Shown here: positions 47,452 through 55,907 of the stretch, one piece after another | Numbering within the stretch: the stretch's first letter is position 1 | How the letters are laid out: each line of letters starts with the position of its first letter | Origin: Vulcanimicrobiota bacterium | GTDB taxonomy: Bacteria; Vulcanimicrobiota; Vulcanimicrobiia; Vulcanimicrobiales; Vulcanimicrobiaceae | Direction of reading: 5' to 3' | Length of the DNA stretch: 64,000 bases | Assembly (NCBI GenBank): GCA_003151115.1 | Contig: PLWS01000004.1 | Span: forward strand, 1 to 64,000 | The notes under the pieces: model-generated | Told to the model about the DNA's origin: nothing | Databases searched by the model: none | Seen by the model: the letters and a program-made list of their open reading frames with translations, nothing else | Program-made: the position numbers and the translations under genes

Positions 47452-48854
47452 CCTACGATTCTTACGCGTCCCCGTTCTCGTGGAGATACGGGCGCGCCGA
47501 GCTGCGCGCGCTTTTTTCCGAACGCGAACGGCGCCGGCTTTGGCGCCAGGTCTGGCTGGCTTTGGCCGAAGCGCAGTCCCGGCACGGACTGGTCACTGCC
47601 GAAGAAGTTGAAGACATTCGCGCGCATGCCGACGAGGTCGACATCGACGCCGCGCTCAAAATCGAAAGCGAGATCCATCACGACCTAATGGCCGAGATCC
47701 GCGTCTTTGCTTCGCAGGCAAAGATCGGCGGCGGCAAGCTTCATCTCGGCTCGACGTCGATGGACATTGAAGACACGGTCGAAACGTACCGCTTGCGACA
47801 GGCGACGGTGATGATAGGCGCCTCGATTGGCGATCTGCTGCGTGCATTTGCAGAGAAGATCCGGGAGCACGCCGAGCTGGTCTGCATGGCGTTTACGCAC
47901 CTGCAGCCGGCTGAGCCGACGACGCTTGGCTACCGCTTCGCCGTTTATGCGCAAGACTTGCTCATCGACGATGCGGCACTGCGTTTCGCCTTCGAGAATC
48001 TGACCGCAAAAGGCATGCGCGGGGCCGTCGGCACCGCGGCTTCGTACCAGCAACTCCTCAACGGCAGCGGTTCGGCGGAGTCCATGGAGAAGGCGGTTCT
48101 CGATCGATTCGGATTGCACGCGCGCGACATCAGTACGCAAACCTATCCGCGCAAGCTGGACTTTTTACTGCTGAGCGCGCTCGCGGGAATCGGCGCGTCG
48201 CTTTCCAAGTTTGCCGCCGACATCCGGATCCTGAGCTCGCCCGAGTTCGGCGAACTGCGAGAGCCGTTCGGAGAAAAGCAGGTTGGCAGCTCCGCGATGC
48301 CTTTCAAGCGCAATCCAATTTTGTGCGAACGCATCGATTCGCTCGCCCGGCTGCTGCCGGCATACGCGGACGTCGCATGGCAAAACGCGGCGACGAATTA
48401 TTTGGAACGCACGCTCGACGACAGCGCGAACCGGCGCACGATTCTGCCTGAAGCACTGCTCTGTACCGACGAAATCATACAGTTGGCGATCAAAGTCGTG
48501 AACGGCCTCACCGTCGATAGCAAACGCATTGCGGAAAACTTGCGGACCTACGGCCCGTTTGCGGGAACGGAGTCGGTGCTGCTCGAGGCCGTGCGCGCGG
48601 GTGGCGACCGGCAAGCGCTTCACGAAGTGTTGCGTACAGCAGCGATGCAATCATGGAAAGCTATCGCGCAGGGTAAAGAAAACCCGCTGGGCAGTTTGTT
48701 GACCGAAGAGCCCGGACTCACGAGCCGGCTCGATCCGGCCGAGATCCGCCGCATGCTGGAACCCTCGGGTCATACGGGAAGCGCCGCTTCACGCGCCCGC
48801 GCGCTGGCCGGGAAAATCGACGCACTCGCGCCATTTCCACAAGGGAAACAATGA
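47448..48854 (+). CDS. purB: Adenylosuccinate lyase
   Basis: A 468-residue homotetrameric lyase acting twice in purine synthesis (SAICAR to AICAR, adenylosuccinate to AMP). SHGLVT-type helical start, KLHLGSTSMDIEDT, CMAFTHLQPAEPTTLGYRF (catalytic His) and the signature GSSAMPFKRNPILCE are visible. ATG overlaps the holA stop; the stop is followed 2 bases later by purC. Confidence 0.94.
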   Translation: MTYDSYASPFSWRYGRAELRALFSERERRRLWRQVWLALAEAQSRHGLVTAEEVEDIRAHADEVDIDAALKIESEIHHDLMAEIRVFASQAKIGGGKLHLGSTSMDIEDTVETYRLRQATVMIGASIGDLLRAFAEKIREHAELVCMAFTHLQPAEPTTLGYRFAVYAQDLLIDDAALRFAFENLTAKGMRGAVGTAASYQQLLNGSGSAESMEKAVLDRFGLHARDISTQTYPRKLDFLLLSALAGIGASLSKFAADIRILSSPEFGELREPFGEKQVGSSAMPFKRNPILCERIDSLARLLPAYADVAWQNAATNYLERTLDDSANRRTILPEALLCTDEIIQLAIKVVNGLTVDSKRIAENLRTYGPFAGTESVLLEAVRAGGDRQALHEVLRTAAMQSWKAIAQGKENPLGSLLTEEPGLTSRLDPAEIRRMLEPSGHTGSAASRARALAGKIDALAPFPQGKQ

Positions 48855-50053
48855 ACAAAGGCATCGAGATCGCCCACGGCAAGACCAAGGTGCTCTACGA
48901 AAGCCCGGGGCAGCCGGACGTTGCCGTGGTCAAGCAAACCGATGCGATAAGCGCGGGTGACGGCGCGCGGCGCAACGAGATTGCCGGCAAAGGCCGCTTG
49001 GCGGCGCAAACTACGGCGCGGGTTTTCCGTTTGCTCAATCTCTGCGGGCTGCCGACGCACTACTTGAGCGGCGGCGAAGACGACGACCAAAACGAGATGT
49101 TGGTCCGGCGCTGCAACATGATTCCGCTAGAAGTTGTGGTGCGCGGTGTGGCCGCGGGCTCGCTTGTAAAGCGCAATCCCGGGATGCAGCGCGGCGCTCT
49201 TCTCGTTCCCCGCATGCTTGAGTTCTTTCTGAAAGATGACGCGAATCACGACCCGCTGATAACACCCGACGAAATCGTTTCGCGCAGTATCGCGCAGCCG
49301 CCCGAAATCGCCGCGATGAGCGAGATCGCGCGCATTACGTTTGAGATTCTGGCGCACGCATGGCGCAAGCGCGATGTGATGCTGGTCGATCTGAAGTTGG
49401 AGTTCGGTAGGTTGGCCGGCGGCGAGAATCAAGGTCAGCTCGTTATCGCAGATGTCGTTGATAACGACTCCTGGCGCATTTGGCCGGGCGGCCGCGAAGA
49501 CCGGATGCTCGACAAGCAGATTTACCGGAACCTGGAAAAGGTCGACGACGAGGCGCTAAATTACGTCAAAAACGCCTACGAACAAGTGACGGAGATGACG
49601 GGGAATTTTCCGGTTATGCGTCCTGGCATGATCGCGATCTTCGCGGAGAAGCCCGAACAGACGGCCGAAATGAACGCGCTCTCACAGGCGCTCGGCCAAC
49701 TCGGATTGCCGATCATACGACACGTGGCGAGTGCGGCGAAGACGCCGGGTTTCGTGCTTCAGCTCATTCAACAGCACGACGCGAGTTTCGCGCGCTTGGT
49801 CTACGTCACGTTTTCCGGAACCGACGGCGCGCTGCACGCCGTCATCGAAGGCACGACGAGCGCGCCTGTTTTTGAGGCGAGCGACAAAGAGCCGGGCGCG
49901 GTGGCACTGCAGTGCGCGAAAGTGCTCGGACTTGAAGACACCGTGATGTTTGGCCGGACGCTCATGGTGCAAACCAACGCGCGTTCGGCGGTACTGCAAG
50001 CCGACGCCGCGCTCAACATGCAGCCGGCGCCGCCCCCGCCAGACTTTGGCTAA
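48851..50053 (+). CDS. purC: SAICAR synthetase with PurE-like C-terminal domain
   Basis: A 400-residue protein. Residues about 1-255 are a full PurC: IAHGKTKVLYE, NEIAGKGRLAAQTTARVF, PLEVVVRGVAAGSLVKRN, MLVDLKLEFGRL and WRIWPGG. From about 262 to 385 a second domain (GMIAIFAEKPEQTAEMNALS, GLPIIRHVASAAKTPGFVLQ, TFSGTDGALHAVIEG) follows the PurE pattern seen in animal PAICS fusions. But the PurE GSxSD and SAHR/SAHK motifs are degenerate (SAAK), so AIR-carboxylase activity is doubtful. ATG overlaps the purB stop region; the TAA overlaps the purL start. Confidence 0.9.
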   Translation: MNKGIEIAHGKTKVLYESPGQPDVAVVKQTDAISAGDGARRNEIAGKGRLAAQTTARVFRLLNLCGLPTHYLSGGEDDDQNEMLVRRCNMIPLEVVVRGVAAGSLVKRNPGMQRGALLVPRMLEFFLKDDANHDPLITPDEIVSRSIAQPPEIAAMSEIARITFEILAHAWRKRDVMLVDLKLEFGRLAGGENQGQLVIADVVDNDSWRIWPGGREDRMLDKQIYRNLEKVDDEALNYVKNAYEQVTEMTGNFPVMRPGMIAIFAEKPEQTAEMNALSQALGQLGLPIIRHVASAAKTPGFVLQLIQQHDASFARLVYVTFSGTDGALHAVIEGTTSAPVFEASDKEPGAVALQCAKVLGLEDTVMFGRTLMVQTNARSAVLQADAALNMQPAPPPPDFG

Positions 50054-52166
50054 GCCCGCTTTGGCTTTGCGGCCCGATGAACTGCACCGCATCGCCGAAG
50101 GTTTGGGCCGCGAACCAACGACGGTCGAGCTGTATGCGTTCGATGCGCAGTGGAGCGAGCATTGCTCCTACAAGAGCAGCCGCCATCTGCTCAAACAGCT
50201 GCCGACGACCGGTCCCAACGTGGTGCTCGGACCGGGCGAGGACGCGGGCATTTTGCATTTGGGCGAGCATAACGGCGAGCGCTACGGCGTGGTGATCGCG
50301 CACGAGTCGCACAATCACCCTTCGCAAGTCGTGCCGTTCGAGGGCGCGGCGACAGGCGTTGGCGGCATCGTGCGCGACGTGCTCTGCATGGGCGCCGAAG
50401 TGATTGCACTCGCGGATTGCTTGCGCTTCGGTGACGTCGAGGATCCGAACTCCCATCAACGTTATGTCGCGCAGCAAGTCGTCGACGGGATCGCGGCCTA
50501 CGGAAATGCGATCGGCGTTCCGAATATCGCCGGCGACGTGTATTTCGACGAGGGCTTTAACGATAATTGCCTGGTTAACGTCATCGCGCTGGGTTTGGTC
50601 AAGGAAGACGAGATCATTCACTCGCGTGCGCCCGAAGGCTCGGCCGGATGGGACATCGTGCTTGTCGGCAAGGCGACCGATGCCAGCGGCTTCGGCGGCG
50701 CTTCGTTTTCATCGCTGACGCTGGAAGAAGACAACCAAGAAGCCAACAAGAGCGCGGTTCAAGTTCCCGATCCGTTTCTCAAGAACGTCATCATGCGGGC
50801 GACGTACCGCGTCTTCGAATACCTGCGCGAGAAGAAGATCACCGCCGGATTCAAAGATTTGGGCGCCGGCGGCATCATGGGGTGTACGGCGGAGTTGTGC
50901 GCGGCCGGCGGTTTCGGCGCGATCATCGACCTCGACGACGTCAATGTTGCGGTCGAGGGCTTACCGCCTGAGGTGATTGCAGTCGGCGAAACGCAGGAGC
51001 GGTTGTGCTGGGTTCTGCCGGGTGACGTTACACTCGATGTCTTGCGCATATATAATGAAGAGTTTTCGCTGCCCGAGATTGCTCGCGGAGCCCGCGCGAC
51101 CGTTATCGGTGCCGTCCAGGCGGAGAAGCGGTACGTCATGCGCCACGGCAGCGAAATCGTGATGGACGTACCGATTGATTTTCTTACGGGCGCTGTCTCA
51201 AATGAGCTTCGTCATCGTGAGCCTGCTCGAACGACCCCGAGCAGTGCGCGGAACGCGCTCGAGCCGGGGGGGCTGGCGCAGGCGTTAGCTGCAATTAACG
51301 CTTGTTCGCGCGAGCCGCTGTACAAAGAATACGATGCGGTCGTGCGCGGGAGGACTGTTATTCCGCGCGGCCACACAGATGCGGGTGTTATCGCACCGAT
51401 TCCGGGCGCGCCATTCGGTGTAGCATTAAGCGTTGGCGGAAGCGTCATCGAAGCGGTTCGAAAAGTCGTCGCGGTCGGAGCGCGTCCGATCGGTCTGACA
51501 GACTGTCTGAATTTTGGCAATCCGAATAACGAGGAGCATTACGCGCTGCTCGCTGGCGCCGTTGGGGCGCTGTCGGACGAAGCCAAGATGTTCGGGCTGC
51601 CGTTTGTATCCGGTAATGTGAGCTTATACAACGAATCGGCATCCGGAACGGCTATACTGTCCTCGCCGATAATCGGGTGCGTCGGTGTGCTCGATGACGT
51701 TGGTAACGTAGTCACGCCGGCGTTAAAGCATCCGAATTCACAACTGTATTTCATCGGAACTCAGGAAACGGGATCGGCACTGAAAGCGGAAAGCAAACGC
51801 ATAGCTGCCGTCCTTGAGGGAGTCAATGATGGGCTGATTCTGTCGGTTCGGGCGATTGGGAACGACGGCATGTTGGCAGCGGCGGCGCGAATGGCGTTTG
51901 CCTCAGGAAACGATTTTGGTGTGACATTCAGGGACGGAGTGGTCCCCGAGGCGCGTTGTCACGGTTGGTTAGTAGAAGCAGCCGAACCCGCGACGTTTGA
52001 GGCGTTTGCAAACCGCACGCTTTCTCGGGAAGACTGGGAGCTCGTAGGCATAACATCCGTTGCCGGCATAGACGGCGAAGTTGACGTCGCTTCAGACGGC
52101 CGGTTTTGGGATCTTGACGAACTGCACGCTGCATGGGTAAAGCCGCTGGCTGAGATCTACGCATGA
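50046..52166 (+). CDS. purL: FGAM synthase, PurL subunit, with repeat-derived linker
   Basis: A 706-residue small-type PurL using ATP and PurQ-supplied ammonia. YAFDAQWSEHCSYKSSRHLL, HNHPSQVVPFEGAATGVGGIVRD, GGASFSSLTLEE, KDLGAGGIMGC and later GVALSVGGS and FVSGNVSLYNES are its signatures. Between the two halves, after DVPIDFLTGAVSNE, about 20 residues (RHREPARTTPSSARNALEPG) are encoded by a dispersed repeat copy (51209-51258). Third-position GC drops visibly after this point and through purQ. Start is TTG at 50046 or 50061; no ATG suits. Confidence 0.92.
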   Translation: MAKPALALRPDELHRIAEGLGREPTTVELYAFDAQWSEHCSYKSSRHLLKQLPTTGPNVVLGPGEDAGILHLGEHNGERYGVVIAHESHNHPSQVVPFEGAATGVGGIVRDVLCMGAEVIALADCLRFGDVEDPNSHQRYVAQQVVDGIAAYGNAIGVPNIAGDVYFDEGFNDNCLVNVIALGLVKEDEIIHSRAPEGSAGWDIVLVGKATDASGFGGASFSSLTLEEDNQEANKSAVQVPDPFLKNVIMRATYRVFEYLREKKITAGFKDLGAGGIMGCTAELCAAGGFGAIIDLDDVNVAVEGLPPEVIAVGETQERLCWVLPGDVTLDVLRIYNEEFSLPEIARGARATVIGAVQAEKRYVMRHGSEIVMDVPIDFLTGAVSNELRHREPARTTPSSARNALEPGGLAQALAAINACSREPLYKEYDAVVRGRTVIPRGHTDAGVIAPIPGAPFGVALSVGGSVIEAVRKVVAVGARPIGLTDCLNFGNPNNEEHYALLAGAVGALSDEAKMFGLPFVSGNVSLYNESASGTAILSSPIIGCVGVLDDVGNVVTPALKHPNSQLYFIGTQETGSALKAESKRIAAVLEGVNDGLILSVRAIGNDGMLAAAARMAFASGNDFGVTFRDGVVPEARCHGWLVEAAEPATFEAFANRTLSREDWELVGITSVAGIDGEVDVASDGRFWDLDELHAAWVKPLAEIYA
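51209..51258 (+). repeat. Dispersed palindromic repeat, copy 6 (inside purL, in frame)
   Basis: GTCATCGTGAGCCTGCTCGA followed by GACCCCGAGCAGTGCGCG, matching the inverted copy 5 (42797-42862) including an 18-base identity. It is read through in frame as the linker of PurL. Confidence 0.7.
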
Positions 52167-52927
52167 GCGCGAGAGTTGCGGTGCTTGTGTTTCCCGGCAC
52201 GAATAGCGAAGCCGAAACGGTGCGTATTTGCCGCGATGTTGGACTCGACGCGGAAAGTGTGCATTGGAGTAAAGGGGCGTCGCTTCCAAAGTATGATGCG
52301 TATGTACTCCCGGGCGGTTTCGCGTATGAAGATCGCATACGCGCCGGCGCGATTGCGGCCCACGATCCGATGATGGACTACGTGATTGAAGCGGCGGGAG
52401 AGGGAAAACTCGTGTTAGGCATCTGCAACGGCGCGCAAATTCTACTGGAAGCGGGGCTGGTTCCGGGGACGGGCGCGGTCCGCAAGCCAACGGCGGCTTT
52501 TACGCACAATGCGCCTAGCGGCAAGTTCATCTGCAAGCACGTGCACATAAAGCTTGTGGCGGAAACATCCCGCTGCGCGATAACGGCCGCGCTTCCTTCG
52601 GGTACTATTATCCCGGCTTGGTCGGCACATGGGGAAGGGCGTTTGGCTGCGACGCCGGAGCATTTGAACGAAATAACTTCCGGCGGGCACCTTGCGTTTG
52701 TATACGCGCATTCGGACGGCACGGTCGATGATGCGGCCATTCCAAATGGCTCAGCGTTAGGATGCGCCGGACTAACAAATAAGAGAGGCAACATATTGGC
52801 AATTATGCCGCACGCAGAGCGCGACGCGTGGAATTTTAATCATCCCGATCTCGCCGACCGCGAGAATATCTTGGCGCCATCCGGTGGCGCTATACTGTTT
52901 CGCGCGTTTGCAAAAGCGCTGTCGTAA
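52163..52927 (+). CDS. purQ: FGAM synthase, glutaminase subunit PurQ
   Basis: A 254-residue class-I glutamine amidotransferase supplying ammonia to PurL. VAVLVFPGTNSEAET, VLPGGFAYEDRIRAGA (oxyanion), VLGICNGAQILLEAGL (nucleophilic Cys), and PHAERDAW with His and Glu near the end complete the triad. ATG overlaps the purL stop. Codon use resembles the second half of purL. Its stop abuts the end of the opposing small membrane gene. Confidence 0.94.
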   Translation: MSARVAVLVFPGTNSEAETVRICRDVGLDAESVHWSKGASLPKYDAYVLPGGFAYEDRIRAGAIAAHDPMMDYVIEAAGEGKLVLGICNGAQILLEAGLVPGTGAVRKPTAAFTHNAPSGKFICKHVHIKLVAETSRCAITAALPSGTIIPAWSAHGEGRLAATPEHLNEITSGGHLAFVYAHSDGTVDDAAIPNGSALGCAGLTNKRGNILAIMPHAERDAWNFNHPDLADRENILAPSGGAILFRAFAKALS

Positions 52928-53187: not shown

Positions 53188-53326
53188 CGCGCTGGGGCGG
53201 GTTTGACACCCGCAGCCTCCAGCGCACGGGCAACCGTGGACGGGCGTGTCGCGGTATGGTAAGATCGAGTTGTCGGTTTCTTGGCTTATCGGTAAAACCG
53301 CGACCGCCCCTCTGGGCGGTCGTTTT
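53188..53326 (+). ncRNA. Candidate structured leader or small RNA ending in a terminator
   Basis: CGCTGG...CCAGCG encloses GCGGGT-TTGAC-ACCCGC, then CACGG-GCAA-CCGTG (GNRA-type tetraloop), then GCGGT/ACCGC across 53253-53300. It ends in a perfect stem CGACCGCCC/GGGCGGTCG (53301-53322) and TTTTGTTTT. The upstream neighbour is on the other strand, so the transcript must start within about 130 bases. It may be a small RNA or a control leader of the purS-like/purP genes. Confidence 0.4.
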
Positions 53327-53375: not shown

Positions 53376-53798
53376 GTGCTGCACACCATCGCTATTAAAC
53401 TGAAGATTCCCGACAACGCCGCGTTCAGCGCGCTGACGGCTTTGCGCCGTCTCGGCGTGGACGTGGAACGGGTCGAACGGGCCGACATTTGGCAATTCGC
53501 CGGGCCGGGATCGAGCGACGATGTCGCGACGAGCGTCAAGCGCAACGAGTCGTTGTTCAATCCGAACAAGCATGTGCTCGAAGTGCTCGAGTCGCCTTCG
53601 CCACGCGCGGGAGAAACGTGGATCTCCAACATCCCTATCCCCGGAGACGTGCCGCCCGGCTCATCCGCGGGCGCCGCAAAACATTACGTGGCGTGGCGGC
53701 TGTTTGCGGGCCACGATCGGCCGGCAGACAAGGCGACGGTGACCTCGGCGATTGAAAAACTGCTCTGCAACCCTGCCATCGAACGCGCGATAACGTAA
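53376..53798 (+). CDS. Possible divergent PurS-like protein
   Basis: A 140-residue protein. The first 45 residues (TIAIKLKIPDNAAFSALTAL, then RRLGVDVERVERADIWQF) resemble the PurS fold, a small dimer that links PurL and PurQ. The remaining about 95 residues (ISNIPIPGDVPPG, YVAWRLFAGHDRP) have no counterpart in PurS. As PurL and PurQ are the separate bacterial type, a PurS is expected nearby and none other is seen. GTG start at 53376; the stop overlaps purP start region. Identification is tentative. Confidence 0.4.
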   Translation: MLHTIAIKLKIPDNAAFSALTALRRLGVDVERVERADIWQFAGPGSSDDVATSVKRNESLFNPNKHVLEVLESPSPRAGETWISNIPIPGDVPPGSSAGAAKHYVAWRLFAGHDRPADKATVTSAIEKLLCNPAIERAIT

Positions 53799-54811
53799 TG
53801 CCCGAGGCTTATACGGTAGCGACGCTCGGCTCGCATTCGGCGCTGCAAATTCTCAAAGGCGCGCACGACGAAGGGTTTCCGACGCTCGCGATCGCGAACC
53901 GCGACACGGAGGCGTTGTACCGGTCGTTCCGTTTCGTCGACGAGGTGATTGGCGTCGAGCGTTACCAAGATTTTACGGCGCTGATGCCGGAACTCGAAAA
54001 GCGCAAACTCATTATCGTACCGCATGGCTCATTCGTAGCGTATCTCTCGCACGAAGAGCACAAACGCATGACCATTCCGTATTTCGGAAACAAAGCCGTG
54101 CTCGACTGGGAAGCCAGCCGCGAGTTGCAGCGCCAATGGCTATCGTGCGCAGGACTGACGCTGCCGCGTCAATTTCAAACGGGCAGCGACATCGACCGTC
54201 CCGTGATCGTCAAACTCTACGGCGCGAAAGGCGGCAAGGGCTACATGTTCATTCGCGATACCGCCGACTTCGAGGCGCGCGCGGCGCATCTCAAAGAAGA
54301 GCACATCATCCAAGAGTACATCGTCGGCGTGCCGCTCTACGTCCATTACTTCTATTCGCCATTAGAAGACCGGCTCGAGATCATGAGCATGGACCGGCGT
54401 TACGAAACCAACGTCGATTCGCTCGGGCGCATTCCGGCCGCAGCGCAGGAAGGCATGGACGTCAGCCCTTCGTACGTGGTGGTCGGCAACTCGCCGGTGT
54501 CGCTGCGCGAGTCAATGCTGGCCGAAGCCTACCGCATGGGCGAAGCCGTCGTGCGCGTCAGCAAGGAAATCTGCGGGCCCAAAGGGTTGTTCGGCGCCTT
54601 CTGCATCGAAACTATCATCACGCCGGACATGCAATTTTTCGTGATGGAGATTTCCGCCCGCATCGTGGCGGGGACCAATCTCTTTATCGACGGCTCCCCG
54701 TACTCGTACCTGAATTACTCGGAGCCCATGTCGACTGGGCGCCGGATTGCCAGGGAACTCAAGAACGCCATTTCGAGTAATAAACTGGGAATGGTGTTGG
54801 ATGATGGATAG
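53798..54811 (+). CDS. purP: Archaeal-type FAICAR synthetase (formate-dependent)
   Basis: A 337-residue ATP-grasp enzyme. TVATLGSHSALQILKGAHDEG, IVPHGSFVAYL, MTIPYFGNKAVLDWE, DRPVIVKLYGAKGGKGYMFI, EEHIIQEYIVGVPLYVHYFY, MSMDRRYETNVDSLGRIPA, SYVVVGNSP and FVMEISARIVAGTNLFIDGS match PurP throughout. PurP makes FAICAR from AICAR, ATP and formate, replacing the transformylase half of PurH. It is best known from archaea, so its place in a bacterial purine cluster is notable. ATG overlaps the previous stop. Length is normal. Confidence 0.92.
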   Translation: MPEAYTVATLGSHSALQILKGAHDEGFPTLAIANRDTEALYRSFRFVDEVIGVERYQDFTALMPELEKRKLIIVPHGSFVAYLSHEEHKRMTIPYFGNKAVLDWEASRELQRQWLSCAGLTLPRQFQTGSDIDRPVIVKLYGAKGGKGYMFIRDTADFEARAAHLKEEHIIQEYIVGVPLYVHYFYSPLEDRLEIMSMDRRYETNVDSLGRIPAAAQEGMDVSPSYVVVGNSPVSLRESMLAEAYRMGEAVVRVSKEICGPKGLFGAFCIETIITPDMQFFVMEISARIVAGTNLFIDGSPYSYLNYSEPMSTGRRIARELKNAISSNKLGMVLDDG

Positions 54812-55907
54812 GGTGAGGATGATAATGTTTGCGCTGTTTGCGCTACTGTTACCATTGAGGGCGAACGCGACGCTTATGGCCGATCCAGCCCAACTCTATG
54901 CGCTGATGAAGGCCTCATTCGAAAAGGGCGCGGCGCAGGGCTGGACGTTTTACAATCAGCAAGAGTATCTTTCGACGATATTTAACGCCGGCCGTGCATA
55001 CTCGCTGCAGCTGCCGAACGATCCGGGCTATGCCAACCTGGCGCAACTGACGGTCGACATGGCGTCGGCATTGCATTACGATCCGCTCATCAATCACGAA
55101 GCGGTGCCCTGGTGGGTGCGCGAGGCGGCGCTCTATGTGCAGAAAAACAACCCCGACCGGGCGGAACAAGCCAAAGCCAAAAATTTGCTTGCGCGCGTCG
55201 ATGCGCTCGAAGATCCGATCGCGCTCGCACAATTCGCCGATGAAGACGCAACCGCGCTGCTGCAGGCCTATCCTCACGACGCCAACGCGCAGCTGGAACG
55301 AGTCGAAGCCAATTGGCGCGGCTGGCTGATCAGCGGCGATGCATCGTGGCGAAGCCTCGCATTCGTGCACGCGAACCAGCCCACGTTTCCGATCGCCAAT
55401 CTGCCATCGACGTGGGGGCCGGCTTTCCTGAACGCGTTGCGTAATGCAGGCGCCAGTGCCGAAGGCTATACGCAAGGCGACCAAGTCAACGCGCAAGCCG
55501 TGCTGAACCGTTTGCGCCTTGCGGATGCGCCGCCGCTCATCGCCAGCGTCAAATCGCAGCCGCACGACGTTTATTTGACCACGCTGGCGCCGGCCGATGA
55601 ATACTTTGGGCCGATGGGCATGTCGATTCTGGGAATTCAAAACGAGCTCAAGCGCGTCAATTTCATGATCGGCTACGGCTACACGACGCAAGAAAGCAGC
55701 GCGGCCGTCCAAATCGCAACCGCCATCGACGACATGCACAAGGTCTATCCGCGCGACCGCGACCTGCCCCAGCTGCTGCTCGACATGTACACGGCGCTTG
55801 GAAAAATCGGCACGCCGGATGCGAACGCGGCTCGTACGCACATGCGCGCCATCCTCACGGTTGAGTACCAGGACACTCCTCAAGCGCACCAACTGCTTCC
55901 GCTATAA
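54804..55907 (+). CDS. Secreted helical-repeat protein
   Basis: A 367-residue protein with an N-terminal signal segment (RMIMFALFALLLPLRANA) and a long helical region with loosely repeated alanine-rich helices, resembling TPR-like scaffolds. No catalytic motif. ATG overlaps the purP stop (ATGGATAG), so it belongs to the same transcript, though no link to purine synthesis is apparent. Confidence 0.6.
   Translation: MDRVRMIMFALFALLLPLRANATLMADPAQLYALMKASFEKGAAQGWTFYNQQEYLSTIFNAGRAYSLQLPNDPGYANLAQLTVDMASALHYDPLINHEAVPWWVREAALYVQKNNPDRAEQAKAKNLLARVDALEDPIALAQFADEDATALLQAYPHDANAQLERVEANWRGWLISGDASWRSLAFVHANQPTFPIANLPSTWGPAFLNALRNAGASAEGYTQGDQVNAQAVLNRLRLADAPPLIASVKSQPHDVYLTTLAPADEYFGPMGMSILGIQNELKRVNFMIGYGYTTQESSAAVQIATAIDDMHKVYPRDRDLPQLLLDMYTALGKIGTPDANAARTHMRAILTVEYQDTPQAHQLLPL

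Follow-up and report, generated by a model that had tools for sequence, protein, structure and literature searches.

The purine operon of bacteria of the class Eremiobacteria contains PurP1, a PurP protein of the archaeal cluster Ib type, and nearly all sampled members of the class carry it together with a second copy, PurP2, bearing the signatures of cluster II. Transfer of this pair from archaea into the ancestor of the class is strongly supported by trees, by the distribution in the phylum, and by gene order. The PurP pair has apparently been retained alongside, and not in place of, the bacterial PurH for the same step.

PurP1 and its operon

In the window, i.e., the whole analyzed stretch of 64,000 nucleotides at the start of contig PLWS01000004.1, purP1 is an unbroken reading frame of 337 codons running from an ATG start to a stop. 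Both PurP domains, PF06849 (DUF1246; 1.5e-38) and PF06973 (DUF1297; 1.6e-67), were detected far above cut-off and together cover the whole protein. The best solved relatives are Pyrococcus furiosus PF1517 (phmmer 2.4e-100, 52% identity) and then Methanocaldococcus jannaschii MJ0136 (6.7e-88, 43% identity). Six NCBIfam PurP models (NF009779 and related) all matched PurP1, and all did so under their equivalog cut-offs (score of 381 bits vs. a cut-off of 580 bits).

The residues His27, Ser94, Asn258, Ser266, and Arg314, taken from PMC3261824 in M. jannaschii numbering, are present in PurP1, as is the glycine loop GAKGGKG. Asn258 in combination with a (K/R)GG(K/R)G loop is the signature of clusters Ia and Ib. 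Thus, the view of the initial annotation that PurP is intact along the full protein holds for both domains, the contact residues, and the reading frame. His27, Ser94, Asn258, and Arg314 do not vary among the class PurP1 sequences examined. At the leading basic position of the P-loop (the first K in KGGKG), the window protein has K, Q, A, G, H, or L occur elsewhere in the class, and some Thaumarchaeota have A; we count the variability of this position in class PurP1 against the formate- and ATP-dependent AICAR formylation proposed below.

The gene lies in the following setting, all features being on the + strand:

47472..48854, +, purB, adenylosuccinate lyase of bacterial type, TIGR00928 over cut-off (start approximate; mechanical reading frame from 47208)
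48851..50053, +, purC, extended at the C terminus by a PurE-like part lacking the SAHRTP motif
50052..52166, +, purL, small-type FGAM synthase, TIGR01736 over cut-off (start approximate)
52163..52927, +, purQ, TIGR01737 over cut-off
53300..53323, +, hairpin resembling a terminator, downstream of purQ and upstream of purS/purP1 in the window genome (pattern match only)
53376..53798, +, probable enlarged PurS of 140 amino acids, with an insert of 65 to 70 amino acids between the PurS halves
53798..54811, +, purP1, archaeal cluster Ib-type PurP of 337 amino acids (H13, N231, R288, loop GAKGGKG)
54747..55907, +, reading frame of ~375 amino acids with a signal-peptide-like start, without a family match

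The association of PurP with purB, purC, purL, and purQ, proposed earlier, is borne out, all four genes lying upstream; the adjacency of purQ and purP1 needs correction, since a gap of ~870 bp between the end of purQ (52927) and the start of purP1 (53798) holds the hairpin and the 140-amino-acid reading frame. The latter is kept between purQ and purP throughout the class. A profile built from eight relatives aligned with PurS 1gtd (E value of 1e-5), the first half with the first and the last with the last. Four of the eight relatives matched PF02700, and the window sequence alone stayed under the Pfam cut-off; no other Pfam family was matched by any of the eight. The insert carries the motifs FNPNKHRL and GEVWI and brings the protein to 140 amino acids, compared to ~80 in usual PurS. 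Hence, the frame probably encodes an enlarged PurS. Because its stop codon overlaps the start of purP1 as TAATG, and given this probable identity, purP1 appears bound to the purine operon via purS.

Two further features of the cluster deserve mention. The PurC extension matches PF00731 weakly and reads SAAKTP in place of SAHRTP, and this PurE-like domain is possibly dead or repurposed. The reading frame at 54747 to 55907, for which no Pfam match was found, often lies between purP1 and purP2 in relatives, is conserved at that place within the family, and drifts fast in sequence (34 to 79% identity).

Comparing the window genome with nine relatives, PurP1 was the most conserved among the purine proteins included (72 to 93% identity vs., e.g., 48 to 60% for purL and 65 to 87% for guaA). 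With dN/dS values of 0.02 to 0.05 against four congeners, PurP1 is under very strong purifying selection.

The second copy and the archaeal pairs

The second gene, purP2 (L034:16748-17875), encodes 375 amino acids and lies at ~80.7 to 81.9 kb of the same contig, 27 kb further on and outside the window. PurP2 retains His27, Ser94, Ser266, and Arg314. It carries His258, and its loop (AKVSFERAFF) is two residues longer and has lost the glycines. Asn258 with the glycine loop and His258 with an altered loop are the respective signatures of clusters I and II described by Brown et al. 2011 (PMC3261824). In all 158 sequences compared, from the class and from archaea, the identity of residue 258 was coupled to the loop type.

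Other families of this class have the genes in the order purB-purC-purL-purQ-purS-purP1-(reading frame of ~375 amino acids)-purP2-guaA-purD, with purF further along, and the ancestral order of the class is purB-purC-purL-purQ-purS-purP1-purP2-guaA-purD. Separation of purP1 from purP2 is a trait of the window genus. There, as well as in genomes G046 and G133, purP2 has moved out of the purine operon into a purine-degradation cluster, where it neighbors a divergent amidohydrolase resembling guanine or 8-oxoguanine deaminase and a PuuE-like allantoinase; a xanthine-dehydrogenase-like gene also belongs to this cluster. These gene names follow from sequence resemblance and partial Pfam support. With purP2 relocated, the pair need not be cotranscribed in the window genus.

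The arrangement resembles the archaeal cluster Ib/II pairs, such as PF1517 and PF0421 or those of Sulfolobales (PMC3261824), in the residue-258 and loop signatures, the one-to-one pairing, the adjacency, and the purine gene neighbors. It differs from them in its occurrence in a bacterial class, within an operon with bacterial purB, purC, purL, purQ, and guaA, and in company with full-length PurH. The closest relatives are the pairs of Woesearchaeota (the GTDB phylum of locus L054), found in 38 of 351 genomes, which share 50 to 56% identity with PurP1 and 48 to 52% with PurP2. They likewise show the order PurP1-PurP2-guaA, and most carriers keep PurH. However, woesearchaeal guaA stands apart from bacterial guaA, and woesearchaeal purB and purC show no more than a remote similarity to those of the class (24 to 32% identity).

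Coexistence with PurH and candidate functions

A search of the window genome with PF01808 identified one full-length PurH, a 529-amino-acid frame without stops that can be aligned with solved PurH over its full length; the gene is located on a separate contig beside rnc/smc-like genes. PurH was detected in 105 of 111 class genomes, and each of the 30 class sequences read retains an intact KH..PCG catalytic motif. The protein is 60 to 69% identical outside the genus, as read mostly from other class genomes, and with a dN/dS of ~0.08 it is under purifying selection. PurM and PurN were also found in the window genome; PurO and formate-tetrahydrofolate ligase were not. Matches to PF00551 comprised Fmt, PurN, and a weak third protein resembling a sugar formyltransferase. 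The presence of PurH renders the AICAR formylation step formally redundant with PurP. A precedent exists in Methanosarcinales (PMC3261824), in which full-length PurH likewise occurs together with two PurP-like genes; these organisms are archaeal, whereas coexistence is near-universal in the bacterial class described here.

We consider it probable that the cluster Ib/II pair entered the ancestor of the class Eremiobacteria from an archaeon and was kept as a formate- and ATP-dependent AICAR route beside PurH. The ancestor would have gained purP1 and purP2 together, into its purine operon, with nearly all descendants retaining them. By analogy with MJ0136, PurP1 would bind AICAR, ATP, and formate and yield FAICAR via formyl phosphate, and its use of formate and ATP is plausible on these grounds. 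PurP2, with an altered loop and retained substrate-pocket residues, may act as a required partner or modulator of PurP1, and the IMP cyclohydrolase domain of PurH would close FAICAR to IMP. Formate could thereby enter purines independently of folate, in parallel to the folate-dependent PurH domain, in a genome in which formate-tetrahydrofolate ligase was not found. MJ0136, which belongs to cluster Ia and ligates formate to AICAR at the expense of ATP, shares the fold family and the formyl, AICAR, and phosphate contact residues. In contrast to the class described here, organisms with cluster Ia proteins mostly have just one PurP and lack the PurH1 transformylase (PMC3261824).

The pair might instead catalyze or regulate another purine step, for instance as an undescribed nucleotide ligase, in FAICAR cyclization, or in AICAR/IMP sensing, and persist beside PurH for that reason. 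We regard this explanation as possible but doubtful. The coexistence with PurH, seen throughout the class and among woesearchaeal carriers (30 of 33), would be readily understood in this way, as would the very strong selection on PurP1 and the neighborhood of purP2, which adjoins guaA in both the class and Woesearchaeota, and purine catabolism genes in the window genus. Moreover, the P. furiosus proteins PF1517 (cluster Ib) and PF0421 (cluster II) reportedly showed no activity as AICAR formyltransferases when assayed (PMC3261824), so the reaction of such pairs may differ or need untried conditions. On the other hand, M. jannaschii PurP does formylate AICAR (PMC3261824), and both PurP1 and PurP2 retain the residues of the AICAR and formyl pockets. 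In a Thermoproteota subgroup of the related PurP clade (loci L242 to L247), 13 of the 14 genomes with the PurP1-PurP2 order had no PurH match, which fits a role in converting AICAR to IMP. It is unlikely, although conceivable, that PurP1 and PurP2 form a two-subunit enzyme, fixed in the class and in Woesearchaeota beside functional PurH, with a reaction outside that of PurH, e.g., a formate-dependent conversion of AICAR to IMP or a purine step tied to GMP synthesis.

The initial annotation had raised the possibility that PurP replaced the PurH transformylase and had named a full-length PurH elsewhere, together with grouping of PurP in another ATP-grasp family, as evidence that would count against its reading. 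The first of these was found and the second was not, PurP1 still grouping with PurP. The location of purP1 inside the purine cluster, with PurH outside it on another contig, could be read in favor of a replacement. Yet full-length PurH with intact motifs, here and nearly class-wide, its low dN/dS, and the additional presence of PurN make a replacement highly improbable.

Phylogenetic placement and distribution of the pair

In a careful cluster I tree, class PurP1 sequences formed one clade (100/100) placed within a clade of Woesearchaeota and the Thermoproteota subgroup (97/88). They lay away from MJ0136 and did not group with cluster Ia. PurP1 did not group with Woesearchaeota alone, and that grouping was not rejected (p-AU 0.175). 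In a quick cluster II tree, class PurP2 was sister to woesearchaeal PurP2 (SH-aLRT 99). Thus, the phylogeny called for by the initial annotation places the class copies inside archaeal PurP, and the transfer from archaea that it proposed is supported by these trees together with the distribution in the phylum and the gene order. Operons on woesearchaeal contigs show the orders purM-purL-purQ, purC-purB, and purB-purP1-purP2-guaA. Since the PurP family is broad in archaea, the direction of transfer was presumably from archaea to bacteria; the donor may have been a relative of Woesearchaeota or a member of an unsampled lineage. GC and GC3 of purP1 are like those of the neighboring genes, and the transfer was therefore not recent. 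Cotransfer of guaA with the pair was tested and found no support, as guaA sequences from the class cluster with others of the phylum and not with Woesearchaeota; the transfer signal is therefore confined to the PurP pair.

The duplication that gave rise to clusters I and II appears to be very old (PMC3261824), and the sequences of the class form monophyletic groups with long stems, as might be expected if the pair were a vertical relic that predated the split of archaea and bacteria and was lost in other bacteria. This is very unlikely, considering that both copies are nested in archaeal diversity beside DPANN, off the base of their clusters, and that other classes of the phylum are without PurP.

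PurP was detected in 110 of the 116 class genomes sampled, with two or more matches in 105 (class totals derived from the order of the genome listing), and the genomes short of a pair are nearly all incomplete. Genome G008, a single contig of 3.5 Mb from the family of the window genome, contains two PurP matches and PurH; it presumably represents Vulcanimicrobium alpinum, whose isolate WC8-2 has a chromosome of 3,508,363 bp (PMC9758169). A genome of the window genus (G118), 95% complete, contains PurH and no PurP match of either type, perhaps because both purP genes were lost together or because they fall into a gap of the assembly.

Among 32 genomes from other classes of the phylum, PurP was detected only in G037 (UBP9_UBA1432), UBP9 being a class of Eremiobacterota (PMC6664022). 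We rejected this genome as a PurP holder: the contig in question (DCTU01000162.1, 26,954 bp) is Methanothrix-like, with 83% nucleotide identity to M. harundinacea across 3.5 kb. Contamination by archaeal DNA therefore does occur in the phylum, but as an explanation for the window it is practically negligible given the 110 positive class genomes, the bacterial purine operon wherever neighborhoods were read, including the single-contig G008, and the match of purP1 in GC and GC3 to its neighbors.

A scan of a contig collection returned 80 loci, all archaeal save the UBA1432 contaminant. The probe comprised six rows, two of which were made-up fragments that widened the pattern, and it excluded the FGNKA motif of the class, so that the scan does not represent a survey of bacteria. 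No PurP relatives were found in viral, phage, and plasmid collections, IMG/VR having been probed by two short peptide patterns only. A 2014 survey described PurP as occurring exclusively in Archaea (PMC4177761), and we found no papers on bacterial PurP in the open-access literature, where matching on "PurP" is noisy.

A class of soil bacteria that includes a cultivated species is thus an exception to the archaea-only occurrence of PurP, with a pair previously described from archaea alone. The poorly understood cluster Ib/II pair thereby becomes testable in a mesophilic aerobic bacterium. The pair also provides a well-bounded case of archaea-to-bacteria transfer, involving core biosynthetic genes and dating to near the origin of a class.
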